From a virus, in the IMG/VR virus record IMGVR_UViG_3300033156_001190, positions 1 through 23,241 of that record: 23,241 bases of DNA. The stretch is one strand, 5' to 3'. A model generated the notes under the pieces. That model saw only the letters and a list, made by a program, of their open reading frames with translations. It did no database searches and had not been told where the DNA came from. Made by a program: the position numbers and the translations under genes. This document shows positions 937 through 16,794 of the stretch, one piece after another. The first letter of the stretch is position 1, and each line of letters starts with the position of its first letter.

Positions 937-1632
937 CTCACTATTACTTTCGGGCAACCATATCGCCCTACTGACCATTTCTGGCGGGGAAACCTCTTCG
1001 GATCTCCCTCTCATAGTTTCCTATGAGGCTAGACTGTCGCTTACCCTCTCGGGTCCTGAGGACTCAGTCGTTGCGGCTACTTTATATCCATTGAGCTTTC
1101 TCATATTTTTATAAGACTCCTCTCTGAATACTAGCTCTTCATCATCTAATCCTAAAGTTGGGCTCGGACAATCTTTTACTTTATTGCAATAATCAAGTAA
1201 AAATTGTGCTCGATCCCTTTTAATCTTTAAGTAGGGAATCAATTCTTCTAAAAATTTCTGAATGACTCCTTTGCTTCTCAGATACCAAATGTACATATCT
1301 TTAGAAGTTGGACGACTTTTTCGAGCGCCTTCTTTCAAAATTGTTCCATAACCTAAATCTTCAACAAGAGAAAGAATAGCTTCTTTTTCTACCATTGCTA
1401 TTTTCATAGAAGGAAGATAAGTTGGAGAAAATCTATCTCTTTTGTGTTTAGTTATCATAAAACATCCATCAGCATCAAAAATTCCTGCTGCATATGAAAG
1501 AAGCGTTTGCCTCTGGTTACCATGCATAAACCATCCTTTGTTGTACTGCATTCAGTATAACTAACATCTGAATTTATGTTTAGGCTTCCCAAGTAATCAC
1601 CTCAAGTTTTACACCAGCTCAATTAAGCTTTA
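937..1632 (-). ncRNA. Group I intron in the capsid gene
   Basis: This 696-nt element separates the two capsid exons. At the 5' end, exon bases GCACCGGU (1640-1633) pair over eight positions with intron bases GCUGGUGU (1618-1611), with the diagnostic U-G wobble at the splice site. Intron bases UUGA just before that guide pair with the first four bases of exon 2 (UCAG, 936-933), giving P10. The intron ends in G (937), as group I introns must. The core near the 3' end has P7 (GACUG in the context AACGACUGAG, paired with CAGUC in the context GACAGUCUA), a P8 candidate ACCC-GAGA-GGGU, and a perfect P9 hairpin CUCAUAG-GAAA-CUAUGAG with a GNRA loop (about 1027-1010). The start UAAUUGAGC recalls the phage T4 td intron. 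Splicing restores the reading frame exactly. Unspliced RNA stops two codons after the splice site (KA, then TAA). Confidence 0.88.
1021..1527 (-). CDS. LAGLIDADG homing endonuclease (intron-encoded)
   Basis: This small endonuclease would cut intronless capsid alleles so that repair copies the intron into them. A single LAGLIDADG-type motif (LLSYAAGIFDADG) lies near the N-terminus, followed by a typical ELIPYLKIKRDRAQFLLDY segment; one motif implies a homodimer. The start at 1527 (MHGNQRQTLL) is preferred because AAAGGATGG lies just upstream; the in-frame ATG at 1551 has no ribosome site. From 1527 the protein is 168 residues. It sits wholly inside the intron, and its last roughly 20 codons (AATTESSGPERVSDSLAS) are read through the P7, P8 and P9 region of the ribozyme. 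The coding sequence is therefore constrained by both protein and RNA structure there. The family is clear; activity cannot be judged from sequence. Confidence 0.88.
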   Translation of the reverse strand: MHGNQRQTLLSYAAGIFDADGCFMITKHKRDRFSPTYLPSMKIAMVEKEAILSLVEDLGYGTILKEGARKSRPTSKDMYIWYLRSKGVIQKFLEELIPYLKIKRDRAQFLLDYCNKVKDCPSPTLGLDDEELVFREESYKNMRKLNGYKVAATTESSGPERVSDSLAS

Positions 1633-3840: not shown

Positions 3841-3898
3841 AAATCACCCAAAAATAAACTGGTTCCAATATAGGGAAATTTTCTTAAAAAGGTCCTCT

Positions 3899-3928
3899 AC
3901 AGTACACAAAGGTTGATCAGAAAGTCAA
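3899..3928 (-). promoter_or_regulatory. Putative leftward promoter
   Basis: The minus strand has TTGACT (3928-3923), an 18-base spacer and TACTGT (3904-3899). The -35 box is good and the -10 box weak. It would drive 3840 and the genes to its left. It overlaps a rightward promoter, so the two would compete. Confidence 0.35.
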
Positions 3929-3941
3929 GTTTATTTATTCT
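3913..3941 (+). promoter_or_regulatory. Putative rightward promoter of the recombinase island
   Basis: TTGATC (3913-3918), a 17-base spacer and TATTCT (3936-3941) form a sigma-70-like promoter 27 bases before the first plus-strand gene. This is the only intergenic space from which the 3969-5154 genes could be transcribed. Confidence 0.45.
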
Positions 3942-3968
3942 TAACCCTTCACCATTTAGGAACTATGA

Positions 3969-4202
3969 ATGACTTGGATAAGTATTAAGCGATTTCCTCC
4001 TCCAGAAAGTGAGGATGTGATTTTAACTCATTTTGTTTGGAGAAAGGGAGATAAAACCTTTACTCCACAATTCTTTTTGGTTGGAAAGTGGGTTAAAAAT
4101 TGCTGGTTCGATTCTTATACGGGAAAAAATCTCACCTCTCATTTAAAAAAATGGAAGCCAACCCATTGGTGTGAACTTCCCTCGTTACCCTGTATTAATT
4201 AA
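3969..4202 (+). CDS. DUF551-like protein
   Basis: This 77-residue protein has the start and end hallmarks of the DUF551 family of small phage proteins: an N-terminal W-I-S-I-K-R-F-P-P-P-E segment and a C-terminal T-H-W-C-E-L-P-S-L-P segment, with a Trp-rich centre (HFVWRKGDKTF, FLVGKWVKNCWF). DUF551 proteins have no established function that I know of. The start at 3969 is favoured by AGGA seven bases upstream; a nearby ATG at 3965 is out of frame. It is the first gene of the rightward island. A second DUF551-like protein occurs at 12316-12561. Confidence 0.7.
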   Translation: MTWISIKRFPPPESEDVILTHFVWRKGDKTFTPQFFLVGKWVKNCWFDSYTGKNLTSHLKKWKPTHWCELPSLPCIN

Positions 4203-4211
4203 GGATTTTTT

Positions 4212-4382
4212 ATGCACATTGTTATTGTAATGTTACTTTCTCTTTATAGTTGTCACTCTTTGAACTTTCAAACTACGAAGCCTTCATCTTTTGTTCCTAA
4301 CCCCTATTCAACGGGGTGGTGGGTATGTGCTTACTGCGGAAAAAAATATGAAAATGGCGAAACCTCTTGCACATGTCATTAG
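4212..4382 (+). CDS. Small putative lipoprotein with Cys/His cluster
   Basis: This 56-residue ORF lies in the gap between the DUF551-like gene and the recombinase. It begins MHIVIVMLLSLYSC, a hydrophobic signal segment ending in a lipobox-like L-Y-S-C (Cys14), so the product is probably exported and lipidated. The mature part is short and ends in a metal-site-like cluster: C39-A-Y-C42 followed by C53-T-C55-H56. The ribosome site AAGGA (4201-4205) is at a good distance. It fits between its neighbours with gaps of only nine and three bases. The function is unknown: a surface-exclusion or moron role would fit a small lipoprotein, but nothing in the sequence proves this. Confidence 0.6.
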   Translation: MHIVIVMLLSLYSCHSLNFQTTKPSSFVPNPYSTGWWVCAYCGKKYENGETSCTCH

Positions 4383-4385
4383 ATT

Positions 4386-4955
4386 ATGAAATTTGGTTAT
4401 GCTCGTATTTCTACGCCTAAACAATCTCTAGAAAGTCAAATTACATTGCTCAAGAAAAGCGGCTGTGAAAAAGTTTTTTCTGATGTAATTTCGGGTTACA
4501 ATTCTCAAAAAAAAGAATTTGAAAAAATGTTTCAACAACTTCGAGCCGGTGATACGGTCTCAGTTACGGGCATCGATCGATTGGGTCGATCTACTAAAGA
4601 TTTATCTACCCTTTTAGATGAATTCCATAAAAAGGAGGTCGACCTAATCGTTTTGGGATATGATTTTGATACCAGAACAGCCCAAGGAAGAATGATTTTT
4701 AACTTTATGGCGATGATCGCCGAAAATGAGCGAATGAGAAATCTCGAAAGAATTCAACAAGGCTTAGAAGCCGCAAAAGCACAAGGAAAAAAAATTGGAA
4801 GACCAAAAAAATTAAATAATTCACAAAAGAAAAGAATGAGTGACCTTTATAATAAAAAAGCTTTATCTATATCCGAAATTTGTTTAATGTATGATATCGG
4901 AAAAGTTACAATGTATAAATATTTAAAGGAATTAGAAAATGAAAAAACAACTTGA
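4386..4955 (+). CDS. Serine recombinase (resolvase/invertase family)
   Basis: This 189-residue site-specific recombinase makes and rejoins double-strand breaks through a 5'-phosphoserine link. The catalytic N-terminal domain has YARIS with Ser9 as nucleophile and Arg7, then GIDRLGRS (Asp64, Arg65, Arg68), FDTRTAQGRMIFNFMAMIAE and the ERxR-type hinge region (ENERMRNLERIQQGLEAAKAQ). The GRPKKL linker leads to a C-terminal HTH (SISEICLMYDIGKVTMYKYL). Length and order match classic small resolvases/invertases, and all key residues are present. It could invert DNA, resolve dimers or resolve a transposon; no target site is evident. Its stop overlaps the start of the next gene. It stands on the opposite strand to the head operon, which suggests insertion as a unit. 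Confidence 0.93.
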   Translation: MKFGYARISTPKQSLESQITLLKKSGCEKVFSDVISGYNSQKKEFEKMFQQLRAGDTVSVTGIDRLGRSTKDLSTLLDEFHKKEVDLIVLGYDFDTRTAQGRMIFNFMAMIAENERMRNLERIQQGLEAAKAQGKKIGRPKKLNNSQKKRMSDLYNKKALSISEICLMYDIGKVTMYKYLKELENEKTT

Positions 4956-6087: not shown

Positions 6088-6290
6088 CCTGCTTTTTCCT
6101 TTATTTTTTTTGTTTTAAACTCTGTTAATTCATCTAAAAAGCACCATTTTTCAATTATATCCCATTGTTGATTGGGACTCACAGTAATGGTACATATTGT
6201 TTTTTCTCCTTTCCATCCTTCATGCGATTTGAATACGACGTGAATTTTATCCCCTTCATTTGCAATGTGAGGGGGTTTTTTCCAAATCAT
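6066..6290 (-). CDS. Hypothetical protein
   Basis: This 74-residue protein starts at ATG 6290 (MIWKKPPHIANEGDKIHVVF), overlapping the upstream stop by ATGA; the frame extends further upstream but only across the preceding gene. A compact beta-type core (DKIHVVFKSHEGWKGEKTICTITV-like) leads to an aromatic helix (QWDIIEKWCFLDEL) and a basic tail. The function is unknown. Translational coupling and unbroken spacing support its being real. Confidence 0.55.
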   Translation of the reverse strand: MIWKKPPHIANEGDKIHVVFKSHEGWKGEKTICTITVSPNQQWDIIEKWCFLDELTEFKTKKIKEKAGLKRVYG

Positions 6291-12915: not shown

Positions 12916-13734
12916 TTATACCAACTGCTTGTTCTTCTTTAATTTCCCAGCTAAAGACCAATTCTGTTGGCTTTTAGGAGTAAGTTTAAGAAGACGGGCC
13001 ATAAACCAATTCCAAGGACGATCTAGATTTTTTTTAGTTTCTATTAAAATTCTCATCTCATCGACCACTCTTTGGAAATTATTTTCTGGAAATGCAGCCA
13101 TATTCCACCACCTTCTCGGATCTTGTCTGAAAAGTGATGCAAGAAAAGGGTTTTTTTCTTCAAAAACTGGGAAGTTGCAAAGCCACGGAGGCGCTTGAGC
13201 TTTGTTCCAAGTTTTTTTTCTTGATTTTGCACGCTTTTCCATCCCCGGTTTTTTACTTAAGATAGAAGAATATTTAGAAGTTATAATACTTGGTGTGAAC
13301 TGGGGTGTGAACTCTCGTGGATTTAGGATAAGAAATTTGATTCTTTCCCAACTTAAACCCTTGAACTTTTTTGGGATAAAATATGTGCATGTTTGACGAT
13401 GTCTATACTGTTTCACAATGATTTTAAGATTACTCAAAATCTTTAACAATTTGTTTACCCACTCTCGGGTTGTTCCAATCATTTTTGCCAGCAATGTTTG
13501 CGACGGATAGCATTCAAGATATTTCCAATTTTCAATAAGACGGAAAAGATATTGAGCTTTCGAGGAAAGATGAAGGAAAACAGAAGAAAATTCCGCATTA
13601 TCCCGAGGAATCATCAAAGATTTCATTCCATGAGAATGAGTCATTTGATGAAGTTTTATCTCCATTTCTTCAGAAAAAGAAAAAAAGTTGGTTTGTGGTT
13701 GCTTTAATTTGTCTTGAGTGTCTATATTGGTCAT
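12916..13734 (-). CDS. HTH replication-initiator-like protein
   Basis: This 272-residue protein starts at ATG 13734 (MTNIDTQDKLKQPQTNFFSF). A central winged-HTH of the kind seen in phage and plasmid replication proteins is clear (ECYPSQTLLAKMIGTTREWV, then NKLLKILSNLKIIVKQYRHR). A basic linker follows and then a helical C-terminus (FQRVVDEMRILIETKKNLDR, PWNWFMARLLKL). It probably binds an origin or loads the replication machinery, but a transcription-regulator role is not excluded. The frame continues to a TTG at 13824 across a strong stem-loop; no Shine-Dalgarno is seen at either start, so the start is uncertain. Its leader is covered by a likely antisense RNA on the plus strand. Confidence 0.65.
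   Translation of the reverse strand: MTNIDTQDKLKQPQTNFFSFSEEMEIKLHQMTHSHGMKSLMIPRDNAEFSSVFLHLSSKAQYLFRLIENWKYLECYPSQTLLAKMIGTTREWVNKLLKILSNLKIIVKQYRHRQTCTYFIPKKFKGLSWERIKFLILNPREFTPQFTPSIITSKYSSILSKKPGMEKRAKSRKKTWNKAQAPPWLCNFPVFEEKNPFLASLFRQDPRRWWNMAAFPENNFQRVVDEMRILIETKKNLDRPWNWFMARLLKLTPKSQQNWSLAGKLKKNKQLV
13699..13728 (+). promoter_or_regulatory. Putative promoter of an antisense RNA
   Basis: TTGCTT (13699-13704), an 18-base spacer and TATATT (13723-13728, five of six consensus bases) face right, inside the first codons of the replication gene. The predicted start would be near 13735, exactly at the replication gene's start codon. Confidence 0.4.
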
Positions 13735-13787
13735 GGTTTTTGTTTGTTTTATGCCCGGTTCAACCCCATTGACCGGGCCTTTTTTTT
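13735..13787 (+). ncRNA. Candidate antisense RNA with intrinsic terminator
   Basis: The plus strand holds a stem GCCCGGTTCAA (13753-13763) / TTGACCGGGC (13769-13778), ten pairs with one bulged base and loop CCCCA. A run of eight T follows (13780-13787), making a strong intrinsic terminator. There is no plus-strand gene upstream for it to end. With the promoter at 13699-13728 it would define an RNA of about 50 nt, fully complementary to the leader of the replication gene. Plasmids commonly control initiator synthesis by such RNAs; here this is inference from sequence alone. Confidence 0.45.
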
Positions 13788-13843
13788 CTTTAAACTTCTT
13801 CTTTTTTCCATTTGGGGACCCCAATAATTACTTCTTGCTTGTG

Positions 13844-13878
13844 CGATTCTGGGAGTTATGGTAAGATTCCAAGAATCG
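13844..13878. other. Large stem-loop in replication-gene leader
   Basis: CGATTCTGGGA (13844-13854) pairs with TCCAAGAATCG (13868-13878), ten of eleven positions, around a 13-base loop. Nearby is the perfect palindrome TTGGGGACCCCAA (13811-13823). These lie in the gap between the divergent genes at 13734 and 13942 and may be part of an origin, an operator or a structured leader. Confidence 0.45.
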
Positions 13879-13887
13879 AAGTCATAA

Positions 13888-13919
13888 GCCCCAATTTCTA
13901 TGGTTGGGGTCTTTTTTTT
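13888..13919 (+). terminator. Intrinsic terminator
   Basis: CCCCAA (13889-13894) pairs with TTGGGG (13904-13909) around a nine-base loop, followed after C13911 by eight T residues. It faces right, 23 bases before the plus-strand gene at 13942, so it would shield that gene from rightward transcripts, or attenuate its own. Confidence 0.6.
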
Positions 13920-13941
13920 CAACTTAAAAATATGAAAAATT

Positions 13942-14238
13942 ATGAAATTTTCAATATCTATCGAAGAGATCTATCCCTCTGAAAATGTTGCCAATCCATT
14001 AAAAAACAAAGAGATGGGAACAGTCCACGCAATCATCGATTTTGGATTTTTGCAAGTAGAAATAAAAAATATTTTTTACTGTATTAACAAAAAAAAGAAG
14101 GTTTTCGTCAGCATGCCTAACCACATGTATCACCAAGACACACCCGATAAAACCCGTGTCCCTTCTATCTCTTTTTCAGATCCCGAAATTTTTAGAGAGA
14201 TAAGAAAAAAAGTTACCCAAGAAGTCTTGATGAGTTAA
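13942..14238 (+). CDS. SpoVG-like small protein
   Basis: This 98-residue protein has a layout reminiscent of SpoVG: an N-terminal strand segment (ISIEEIYPSE), a strand pair (VHAIIDFGFLQVEIKNIFYC), a basic turn leading to VFVSMPNHMYHQ, and a C-terminal FSDPEIFREIRKKVTQEVLM helix. SpoVG proteins bind nucleic acid and regulate genes; phage and chromosomal versions exist. The match is by pattern only. No clear ribosome site is seen at 13942. It converges with the HTH gene at 14235, sharing bases at the stops, and diverges from the replication gene. Confidence 0.5.
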   Translation: MKFSISIEEIYPSENVANPLKNKEMGTVHAIIDFGFLQVEIKNIFYCINKKKKVFVSMPNHMYHQDTPDKTRVPSISFSDPEIFREIRKKVTQEVLMS

Positions 14239-14468
14239 CGAGAGGATATTTTTTCCCACTCGCTTAAGGCCTTTTGATAAAACTCAATCTTTGCTTCTAT
14301 GAGTTTTTTAATCCCTAATGAAAAAGCTAAATGCATTCGACCCTCTAACTCACCCTTGCGAGTGAGAATTTTATTTACCGTCATGCGAGAGTAATTTACA
14401 TAGTCGGCCACTTCTTCTCGCGTGAGACGAGAATCTTTAATAAATTCTTTTATTTTTTTTATTTCCAT
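14235..14468 (-). CDS. Small HTH regulator (Cro-like)
   Basis: This 77-residue DNA-binding protein has a clean HTH: SRLTREEVADYVNYSRMTVN, then KILTRKGELEGRMHLAFSLG, followed by a helical C-terminus (EFYQKALSEWEKISSR). Its size and its position facing the early operon's promoter suggest a lambda Cro/Cox-type switch protein controlling the divergent 14469-14554 region. AGGCAGG precedes ATG 14468. Confidence 0.75.
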   Translation of the reverse strand: MEIKKIKEFIKDSRLTREEVADYVNYSRMTVNKILTRKGELEGRMHLAFSLGIKKLIEAKIEFYQKALSEWEKISSR

Positions 14469-14513: not shown

Positions 14514-14554
14514 TTGGATAACTTTTATGTAAACCCCAGATGTGGAGAGTATTA

Positions 14555-14812
14555 ATGAGCATGTACATAAACCACTGGGCCTCAGAAGATGATTTGCCCA
14601 TTTCGCATGAAGATTTAGCTCACGCTAAAGAACATATGAAGCTTGTATTGGAAGCAGCGTATGATGGAACACGCAGCATGCAAGAGTTAGACAGTTCTTT
14701 AGAAGAGGTAGCTGCGGCTTTGGATCTAAAGTTTTGCCAAGAAAAGAAGCTGAAGCTACAAAAGAAAGAAAATCCATTTTTCGATCTAGGAGTATCTTTG
14801 ATGAAAAACTGA
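14555..14812 (+). CDS. Hypothetical early protein
   Basis: This 85-residue acidic helical protein starts at ATG 14555 (MSMYINHWASEDDLPISHED), chosen for the GGAGAG seven bases upstream; the frame opens at 14540. The central helices (LAHAKEHMKLVLEAAYDGTR, then MQELDSSLEEVAAALDLKF) lead to a Lys-rich end. It is the first gene of the early operon before ERF. The function is unknown. Confidence 0.65.
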   Translation: MSMYINHWASEDDLPISHEDLAHAKEHMKLVLEAAYDGTRSMQELDSSLEEVAAALDLKFCQEKKLKLQKKENPFFDLGVSLMKN

Positions 14813-14834
14813 GGTCCGTAGCTTAGGAGCACAC

Positions 14835-15545
14835 GTGACCTCGAAAATTATTAACCTCGAGGAGTATTTAATGAGCATTCCAGAAGAATCCTACGTTCCT
14901 TCTAATACCTATGAAGGAAATAACACTACTCTCCGTCCTATGGAGTCGGAAGAGCTAAACAAGCTGTTTGAAGCGTTGGCAAAAGCCCAGATGGAAATGG
15001 AAGTAGCCAAAACAGATAGCACCAATCCCTATTTCAAAAGCAAATATGCAGATTTGAGATCTGTCGTTGATGCCTCCCGTCCTTTTTTAGCAAAAAATGG
15101 ACTGTGTGTGATTCAACGCACCATCCCAGGAACGAACGGCACGTCATATCTTTACACGCGGCTCGGGCATTTGTCTGGTCAGTGGATGGAGAGCTATATG
15201 CCTATCAACCCTCCAAAGCAAGATATTCAAACCTTGGGATCTTATCTTACCTATTTACGTCGCTACTCTTACTCAAGTATGGTCGGAGTGGTGGCCGGAG
15301 ATGAAGACGATGATGGTGAAAACGCCATGCATATTACGAGGGAAAAAGGAATGTCTAATGATAAAATATCTAAACCTCAACTAGATATGCTCGCGCAAGA
15401 ACTTAAAGGAGAAACTCAAATTGTAGAGCAAATTTTTAAGTCTTATGGTATTTCTAAACTTTCAGATGTCCCAGCAAAAAAATACACTAAATGCTTGGAA
15501 ACTATTAGAGAAATTAAACGAGCTAGAGAGGCAACACCAGCATGA
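14835..15545 (+). CDS. erf: ERF-family single-strand annealing protein
   Basis: This 236-residue recombinase anneals complementary single strands, pairing with the exonuclease two genes downstream. Family features are clear: LNKLFEALAKAQMEMEVAKT, NPYFKSKYADLRSVVDASRP, FLAKNGLCVIQ, the TRLGHLSGQWMESYMPI strand, GSYLTYLRRYSYSSMVGVVA and an acidic EDDDGENA end of the core. The C-terminal third is a variable helical tail. The GTG at 14835 has AGGAG six bases upstream. An ATG at 14871 also has a good site (GAGGAG), so a shorter 224-residue form is possible. The stop overlaps the SSB start (ATGA). Confidence 0.93.
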   Translation: MTSKIINLEEYLMSIPEESYVPSNTYEGNNTTLRPMESEELNKLFEALAKAQMEMEVAKTDSTNPYFKSKYADLRSVVDASRPFLAKNGLCVIQRTIPGTNGTSYLYTRLGHLSGQWMESYMPINPPKQDIQTLGSYLTYLRRYSYSSMVGVVAGDEDDDGENAMHITREKGMSNDKISKPQLDMLAQELKGETQIVEQIFKSYGISKLSDVPAKKYTKCLETIREIKRAREATPA

Positions 15546-15904
15546 ACCATTCAATTTTAATGGGAAGATTAGGAAAAGACCCTGAAGAAAGGGTAACTAA
15601 AAACGGGAACAAGGGAATTTTTTTCTCGCTGGCTGTAGACTCTTATTCTGCAGGAGAAAGAAAAACATCGTGGTATAATATTGCCATCTGGGAAAACGGT
15701 CTTTTTCCTATTGCTTTGTCTTTGAAAAAAGGAGGAATGGTTGCCGTGGCAGGGACGATGCTTCCTCCGAAAACTTATGAAGCCAAAGATGGTACTCTCC
15801 GAGTAGATCAAACCTTAAAATGTGCGGCACTTTACTTTTTACCGAGTGCCCAAAAAAACTCTCTTCCCGAGGAGGATAACCCAGAACAAGATTTAGGTTT
15901 TTAA
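15542..15904 (+). CDS. ssb: Single-stranded DNA-binding protein
   Basis: This 120-residue OB-fold protein coats single-stranded DNA. It has the SSB signature MNHSILMGRLGKDPEERVTK, FFSLAVDSYS, a WYNIAIWENG strand, KKGGMVAVAGTMLPPKTYEA, and an acidic tail (LPEEDNPEQDLGF) ending in Phe, as in SSB tails that dock partner proteins. It is shorter than cellular SSB because the linker is short. It overlaps ERF upstream and its TAA overlaps the exonuclease ATG. Confidence 0.93.
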   Translation: MNHSILMGRLGKDPEERVTKNGNKGIFFSLAVDSYSAGERKTSWYNIAIWENGLFPIALSLKKGGMVAVAGTMLPPKTYEAKDGTLRVDQTLKCAALYFLPSAQKNSLPEEDNPEQDLGF

Positions 15905-16794
15905 TGAAAATTATCAATTTTTTAGAAGGCCAAGGATCCAAAGAATGGTTGGAATGGAGGCGTGGAGGAATCGGCGCTTCCGACATTGCGGTGTTAATGG
16001 GAACTTCTCGTTTCAAAACTCCGTTGACTTTGTGGAATGAGAAATGTGGATTTGCTTTAGAAGAACCACCCAACGCAGCCATGCAGCATGGGAATATGAA
16101 TGAAAGTCGAGCTCGAGAATGGCTCAATGAAAACTTAAATTTAGATCTTCAACCTCTATGTGTGGAAGATCCAGAAACTCATTACTTTCGGGCATCTTTA
16201 GATGGATATGATCATAAGACTAAAACTTTAGTAGAAATAAAATGTCCTGTGACTGATGAGATTATTGAAAATGCGCGCCTTAAACAAAAGGTTCCTGAGT
16301 ATTGGGTGGATCAAAACCTGTGGCAAATGATGTTTATGAAACCTGTGAGGTCGATGATTGCTATTTGGGATTACAAAAATGAATGTTGTTACACTGTAGA
16401 AAATCTGTGTAGGCCCGACCGCCTTGAAAAAATGAGGGAAAAAGCAGAGGAATTTTGGCATAAAGTCCAAACTGGCATATCTCCGGAACCTGAAAATGGT
16501 GATTATATTGTCATAGAAACTCCAGAATTGAAGAAACTGTTCGAAGAGTATGGAGACCTCTATGAAAAAGAAAAATGCGCTCAGAAGAGGCGTAAAGAGC
16601 TTAAAGAAGAAATCATCAATCATGGAGATGATGGAAACTTTTTATCCTTTGGATATCGAGTAACTCGTTGCCGTCCTAAGTCATCTTACGATATCAAAAA
16701 AATGGAAATGGATGGCATTGATGTCGATAAATATCGCAAGCCCTACCATGGAATTGGATTCTATAAAATAGATGTTCCGTCCTCTAGAAGGTAA
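15904..16794 (+). CDS. YqaJ-type viral recombinase exonuclease
   Basis: This 296-residue lambda-exonuclease-like protein would resect double-stranded ends to give strands for ERF. Motifs appear in order: QGSKEWLEWRRGGIGASDIA at residues 10-29, a conserved Glu in NESRAREWL (about 67-71), Asp100 in ASLDGYD, and Glu111/Lys113 in LVEIKCP, the metal-binding core. The middle is helical, with an alternating charged coil (YEKEKCAQKRRKELKEEII), and the end is GFYKIDVPSS. The ERF-SSB-YqaJ cassette is typical of phages using recombination-dependent replication. The 79 bases after the stop hold no gene or clear terminator. Confidence 0.93.
   Translation: MKIINFLEGQGSKEWLEWRRGGIGASDIAVLMGTSRFKTPLTLWNEKCGFALEEPPNAAMQHGNMNESRAREWLNENLNLDLQPLCVEDPETHYFRASLDGYDHKTKTLVEIKCPVTDEIIENARLKQKVPEYWVDQNLWQMMFMKPVRSMIAIWDYKNECCYTVENLCRPDRLEKMREKAEEFWHKVQTGISPEPENGDYIVIETPELKKLFEEYGDLYEKEKCAQKRRKELKEEIINHGDDGNFLSFGYRVTRCRPKSSYDIKKMEMDGIDVDKYRKPYHGIGFYKIDVPSSRR

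Follow-up and report, generated by a model that had tools for sequence, protein, structure and literature searches.

A predicted antisense RNA over the leader of a phage replication gene and its layout in diverged relatives

Introduction

Why should a strong intrinsic terminator lie inside the leader of a phage replication gene, on the opposite strand and reading away from that gene, when no gene upstream of it on that strand, judged from the layout, would need it? The locus that raises this question belongs to a tailed phage known from a complete IMG/VR record (IMGVR_UViG_3300033156_001190), whose 23,241 bases form the window analyzed here. The phage has no named close relative, and its terminase is at most 43% identical to those in named phage records. 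A preliminary description of the DNA had pointed out that no plus-strand gene calls for the terminator and had likened the arrangement to plasmid copy-number control RNAs. Both points agree with our results, and sequence comparison refines the second: the nearest phage precedent is the OOP RNA of lambda, and among plasmid RNAs, RNAII of pMV158 comes closest in anatomy.

The purpose of lambda OOP and its promoter pO has been debated for decades, with proposals that include a replication primer, an antisense RNA to cII and the tuning of replication by a convergent promoter (PMC3985674, PMC3349717). According to PMC4933390, phage antisense RNAs besides oop were until recently reported solely from lambdoid phages. 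The OOP literature comprises work on lambda and P22-like prophages as well as reviews (including PMC7067206, PMC12197685, PMC3349717, PMC5869508 and PMC7157519). Our search, which left subscription journals mostly aside, found no literature on such elements in the present phage group.

Results

Early region of the phage

The replication gene (rep) occupies 12916-13734 on the minus strand, its start codon appearing as CAT at 13732-13734, and encodes 272 aa with an HTH_Crp_2 domain. Direct searches with the protein returned no relative in viral contigs, named phages or plasmids. Its assignment to replication rests on one homologue, that of the related locus L020 (37% identity), which matches the profiles "replication initiation O-like" and "DnaD-like helicase loader". 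A small helix-turn-helix gene (14235-14468, minus strand) leads the leftward operon, so that the gene order runs from this gene (14468) through rep (13734-12916) to RusA, terminase, portal and capsid. The rightward operon (14540-16794, plus strand) contains o14540, an ERF annealing protein, SSB and a YqaJ exonuclease. For YqaJ, neither a single-sequence search nor an alignment search in 84,980 genomes gave a relative, and because the rep and YqaJ searches both came back empty, we do not name a host.

Between rep and the helix-turn-helix gene, and convergent with the latter, lies a 98-aa plus-strand ORF (13942-14238) that matches SpoVG below threshold (E 0.015; 15.9 bits, cut-off 29.6). Most relatives have at this place a small leftward gene that looks membrane-like by eye.

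A predicted antisense RNA at the rep start

The preliminary description had placed a promoter-like pair, TTGCTT-18-TATATT, where it would start transcription at the rep ATG, and a strong terminator about 50 bases further on, inside the rep leader. Both are exactly where it put them. The -35-like hexamer lies at 13699-13704 and the -10-like hexamer at 13723-13728 (plus strand), with 3 nt between the latter and the rep start codon of the opposite strand, which would set the transcription start near 13735. The hexamers match the consensus at 3/6 and 5/6 positions, respectively, too few for the pair to be listed by a promoter scanner, and jointly score 7.8, which is rank 115 of 46,410 positions on both strands under an assumed sigma-70 matrix. 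Taken alone, this promoter is weak. It gains weight only from its position, because such sites are far commoner at the rep starts of relatives than at other gene starts (see below).

The terminator, T1, spans 13753-13787 (plus strand) and consists of a hairpin with the stem GCCCGGT..ACCGGGC (13753-13778), a C at 13779 and a T8 run at 13780-13787. Promoter and terminator together delimit a predicted antisense RNA of 53 nt (RNA 1; 13735-13787, plus strand), which would be the full complement of the last 53 nt of the rep mRNA leader. Its predicted anatomy is an 18-nt single-stranded tail, a GC hairpin with one bulged base and a U8 run. The RNA folds with -14.7 kcal/mol, a value equaled by 2/200 dinucleotide shuffles (z -2.4). 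Nothing in the window matched Rfam.

Further upstream of rep lie two features beyond the preliminary description, namely the ORF 13942-14238 and a further intrinsic terminator, T2 (13888-13919, plus strand; hairpin 13888-13910, T8 13912-13919). A promoter-like pair, TTGACC-16-TAAACT (13769-13796, plus strand; score 9.4, rank 25 of 46,410), sits within and just after T1 and might give rise to a second antisense RNA of ~117 nt (13803-13919, plus strand). Since the search for promoter-like sites 5-110 nt upstream of additional terminators had no null, we claim no significance for such sites. A single long hairpin is the predicted fold of the segment 13790-13920 (-38.3 kcal/mol, z -3.0, with 0/200 shuffles as good). 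On the minus strand, a candidate local rep promoter (TTGAAA-16-TATTTT, 13927-13954) would start transcription near 13920, which makes 13735-13920 the putative target leader; by inspection, no AGGA-type Shine-Dalgarno motif directly precedes the ATG at 13734. If the mRNA does start near 13920, the two antisense RNAs (13735-13787 and 13803-13919) would together cover nearly the whole rep leader.

Terminators upstream of rep in relatives

To compare this locus with others, we collected related loci by protein searches in viral contigs and obtained 19 genomes, including the window, that span the interval from RusA to ERF. Three groups can be told apart among their rep proteins, with no BLAST match between groups at E 1e-3 (18 genomes with 19 sequences, as L047 contributes two and L052 was omitted), and no rep pair is 60% identical over >150 residues. 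Because the rep proteins are so diverged, the leader DNAs are effectively independent, save for L060/L061 (91% over 135 residues) and L020/L052, whose terminators have nearly the same sequence. The test on this discovery set came after the pattern had been noticed by eye, and it used hand-picked rep starts.

A terminator reading away from rep was present no more than 150 nt upstream of the start in 16/19 loci, compared with 5/182 control genes of the same loci (Fisher p about 1e-16), while terminators of the opposite orientation within the same distance occurred in 1/19 loci and 4/182 controls. When the whole gap from rep (or the small gene before it) to the next upstream gene was considered, all 19 loci held an away-reading terminator, and two of them (L050, L057) also held one in the reverse direction. 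In leaders of 250 nt, 17/19 carried a terminator in the orientation of T1; ten dinucleotide-shuffled sets of the 19 leaders averaged 2.0 with a maximum of 4, so the terminator is clearly above chance.

Individual loci differ in detail. In L052 and L055, the mechanically called ORF reaches with its 5' end into the hairpin. A small ORF separates terminator and rep in L047, L055, L059, L060 and L061, which counts against the antisense reading. The terminator is in tandem in L052, and L045 has seven plus-oriented terminators within ~800 nt (3900-4850), with duplications of the rep start region (75 nt) and of the terminator (29 nt); several of its hairpins are followed by short leftward ORFs. In L046, the rep leader contains three 40-nt direct repeats (3883-4004), each with AGGAA on the rep sense strand. 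Seven terminators, when aligned locally, proved too divergent for counting compensatory changes, and we make no claim of covariation. We also considered start codons in the hairpin loops of the sense strand, seen by eye in the window, L020, L046, L047 and L056, and dropped this candidate as they are absent from L044, L045, L049, L050, L053 and L059.

Promoter-like antisense sites at rep starts and a held-out test

Promoter-like sites on the opposite strand (score at least 7, gap -6 to 9) were found at 14/18 rep starts and at 12/184 control starts, the controls being supported gene starts (Mann-Whitney p 1.2e-6). L052 was left out of this count due to its ambiguous start; its site, TTGTAT-18-TGaTATGTT, is 3 to 6 nt from two candidate start codons. 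L047, L060 and L061 were scored at the small gene preceding rep. Examples are TTGTGA-18-TGgTATAGT in L020, TTGGGA-17-TGcTATCTT in L045 and TTCATT-17-TGtTATGAT in L053. The -10 hexamers of the relatives lie a few bases inside rep, placing the transcription start at or near the start codon, and the RNA predicted to begin there spans the Shine-Dalgarno motif, as judged by inspection of the sense leaders. Within the divergent early promoter region, the top plus-strand site ranked 11th or better in the whole locus in 8/11 cases; thus, the sigma-70 matrix looks like a valid, fair guide in these phages.

More distant relatives were then scored under a rule fixed beforehand. Starting from 333 matches, we kept 80 loci, of which 64 were new; 40 had the anchor gene and 22 gave ORFs, and removal of two near-duplicates left 20. 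This rule picks whichever ORF before RusA is longest, so that in some loci the true rep may have been missed. Among the 20, a terminator was present in 12, one of the opposite orientation in none (0/20) and a promoter in 7, with promoter and terminator together in only 2/20. That the two so rarely coincide speaks against a promoter-terminator unit that is uniform across distant relatives.

Comparison with lambda OOP

In lambda, an opposite-strand promoter (pO) lies at the start of the replication gene O or of a small ORF before it, and a short RNA runs away from the gene to an intrinsic terminator (tO) before the upstream gene; the arrangement predicted here has these same traits. The early order of helix-turn-helix gene, small gene, replication gene and RusA is a further likeness. 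The same scan applied to lambda, P22, HK97 and HK022 detected CATAAT over the start codon of O or the preceding small ORF, as well as a terminator upstream of that start and reading away. In P22 both promoter and terminator are annotated as oop, while the HK97 and HK022 records have no oop annotation.

OOP is a real RNA in lambda (PMC5869508), and in the Salmonella prophage BTP1, RNA-seq reveals an RNA at the OOP position, as PMC7067206 reports. As this transcript is seen there, we take the OOP layout as a working predictor of a real transcript, even though the BTP1 RNA is antisense to cII (PMC7067206), unlike that of the window. Lambda OOP and the 3' end of cII overlap over 52 or 55 nt, depending on the source (PMC5869508, PMC3349717). 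This lambda trait has no counterpart here: a Phage_CII match was found in 0/19 records, many of them fragments, and RNA 1 ends before the upstream gene. We therefore rejected a lambda-type role as cII antisense RNA. Neither a tyrosine integrase nor an S24-type repressor was detected in the 19 records, an absence that is soft for the same reason.

The start sites differ as well. Lambda OOP begins at 38675, which is 11 nt upstream of the O codon at 38686 (PMC5869508), whereas the start in the window lies at the start codon itself, so that the predicted RNA covers the ribosome-binding region. Lambdoid phages share a 33-bp OOP sequence block (PMC3349717); blastn of 13600-14100 against a phage collection gave no match. 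Lambda OOP is made in vivo and has an RNase III-dependent effect; for the predicted RNA of the window, both are putative. Lacking a detectable CII, an overlap with the upstream gene and sequence similarity, the window element is, on these comparisons, not an OOP in the strict sense.

Comparison with plasmid pMV158 RNAII

RNAII of pMV158 is encoded between copG and repB. It measures 48 nt, made up of a 17-nt tail, a hairpin with a bulge and a U tract, and it blocks translation of repB (PMC4485353). RNA 1 would be 53 nt long with an 18-nt single-stranded 5' tail, and by prediction it has the same succession of A/U-rich 5' tail, one bulged GC hairpin and U run. Like RNAII, it is complementary to the leader directly upstream of the rep start. 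Both leaders lack ordinary start signals (pMV158 according to PMC4485353, the window by inspection), and in both operons a regulator gene precedes rep. The inhibition that RNAII exerts on rep translation in trans is putative for RNA 1.

The replicons themselves are different. pMV158 encodes a rolling-circle RepB in its copG-repB operon, whereas the rep product of the window is a helix-turn-helix, O/DnaD-like phage protein; a plus-strand ORF between regulator and rep is a further difference from pMV158. Consistent with an initiator that appears unrelated in kind, the rep protein had no match in the plasmid collection, and we conclude from the sequences that the window locus is not a replicon of the pMV158 family.

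Discussion

The anatomy and orientation of the element are clear, and the layout recurs at the same place in diverged relatives. We consider it probable, on the basis of sequence, that the site encodes a small antisense RNA over the rep leader, acting as a gene-dosage brake on replication. The duplicated start region and terminator of L045 speak for this reading. RNA polymerase would start at ~13735, at the rep start codon, read away from the gene and stop at T1 after ~53 nt. Pairing with the rep leader would begin through the 18-nt single-stranded tail and lower the amount of replication protein by blocking ribosome access, as with pMV158 RNAII, by exposing the duplex to RNase III, or both. 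As every genome copy would make the RNA, the brake would respond to gene dosage. The opposing promoter might also hamper leftward transcription, as has been proposed for lambda pO against pR (PMC3985674). We favor a translational block of rep, given the RNAII-like anatomy and the span of the relatives' RNA over the Shine-Dalgarno motif, and see promoter collision as an additional effect compatible with it.

The plus-oriented terminators could instead be insulators that merely stop stray antisense transcription from the leftward operon, protecting the helix-turn-helix gene and the divergent promoters, with no discrete RNA acting. Several relatives do have at least two terminators in a row (seven in L045), which has the look of a fail-safe, and a good promoter and terminator coincide in only 2/20 held-out loci. 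Insulation is nevertheless unlikely in view of the promoter-like sites at rep start codons (14/18 versus 12/184 controls) and of lambda OOP, a real RNA with this layout (PMC5869508). Sense-side action, through structures of the rep mRNA leader or through DNA hairpins of an origin, would reduce the T run to the complement of an A-rich leader. Every hairpin folds in the sense RNA too, and by inspection each of the three L046 repeats carries its Shine-Dalgarno-like AGGAA on the rep sense strand; yet the U run is confined to the antisense strand (16/19 versus 1/19), and antisense promoters at the start codon would not be expected from sense structure alone, which makes this reading improbable.

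An attenuator role for T1 and T2, ahead of the weakly SpoVG-like ORF 13942-14238 and within its leader, is very doubtful. T2 ends 22 nt before the ORF, with a promoter-like pair upstream of it, and the long hairpin at 13790-13920 competes with it, but the terminators also occur in relatives without the ORF (tblastn of the ORF gave no match at E 1e-3 in related loci), and for this reason we rejected the ORF as their explanation. Chance, by which an AT-rich leader would yield both promoter-like and terminator-like strings, accords with the rank of the promoter by itself (115 of 46,410), but is hardly credible for the terminators, found in 17/19 leaders against 2.0/19 (maximum 4) after shuffling and again in the held-out set.

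If the antisense brake is real, its scope could be wider. It is possible, though we hold this only tentatively, that a dosage-sensing antisense brake at rep is a general module of a broad phage group, predating and independent of cII, with OOP/pO kept for replication control and not for the cII switch. The leader in the window would then be tiled by two antisense RNAs (13735-13787 and 13803-13919), and in L045-like relatives the unit would have been multiplied, with up to seven terminators. A phage group without detectable CII, S24-type repressor or tyrosine integrase keeps an antisense promoter and terminator at rep, and the rep family itself varies among the members that keep them. Should the brake be confirmed, the replication role of OOP/pO would become testable without interference from cII, phages would be shown to use copy control of the plasmid kind, and a phage could throttle its own DNA replication.

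Other features of the window and its relatives

Several observations lie apart from the rep leader. In the window, a hairpin at 14809-14858 encloses the ERF gene's Shine-Dalgarno region together with its GTG start codon, with an A run flanking it on the sense side, and possibly sequesters the start codon. A strong plus-oriented hairpin with a T6 run (6251-6275, plus strand) overlies the 5' end of a leftward ORF. Adjoining the major capsid gene is a LAGLIDADG homing endonuclease ORF (1021-1551, minus strand); in L011, the capsid gene match is in two pieces. The TerL genes of L010, L011 and L013-L017 contain inserts of ~1 kb at a few recurring positions, which are probably introns or inteins. 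A small serine resolvase (4386-4955, plus strand) is present in 8/19 related records, counting the window.
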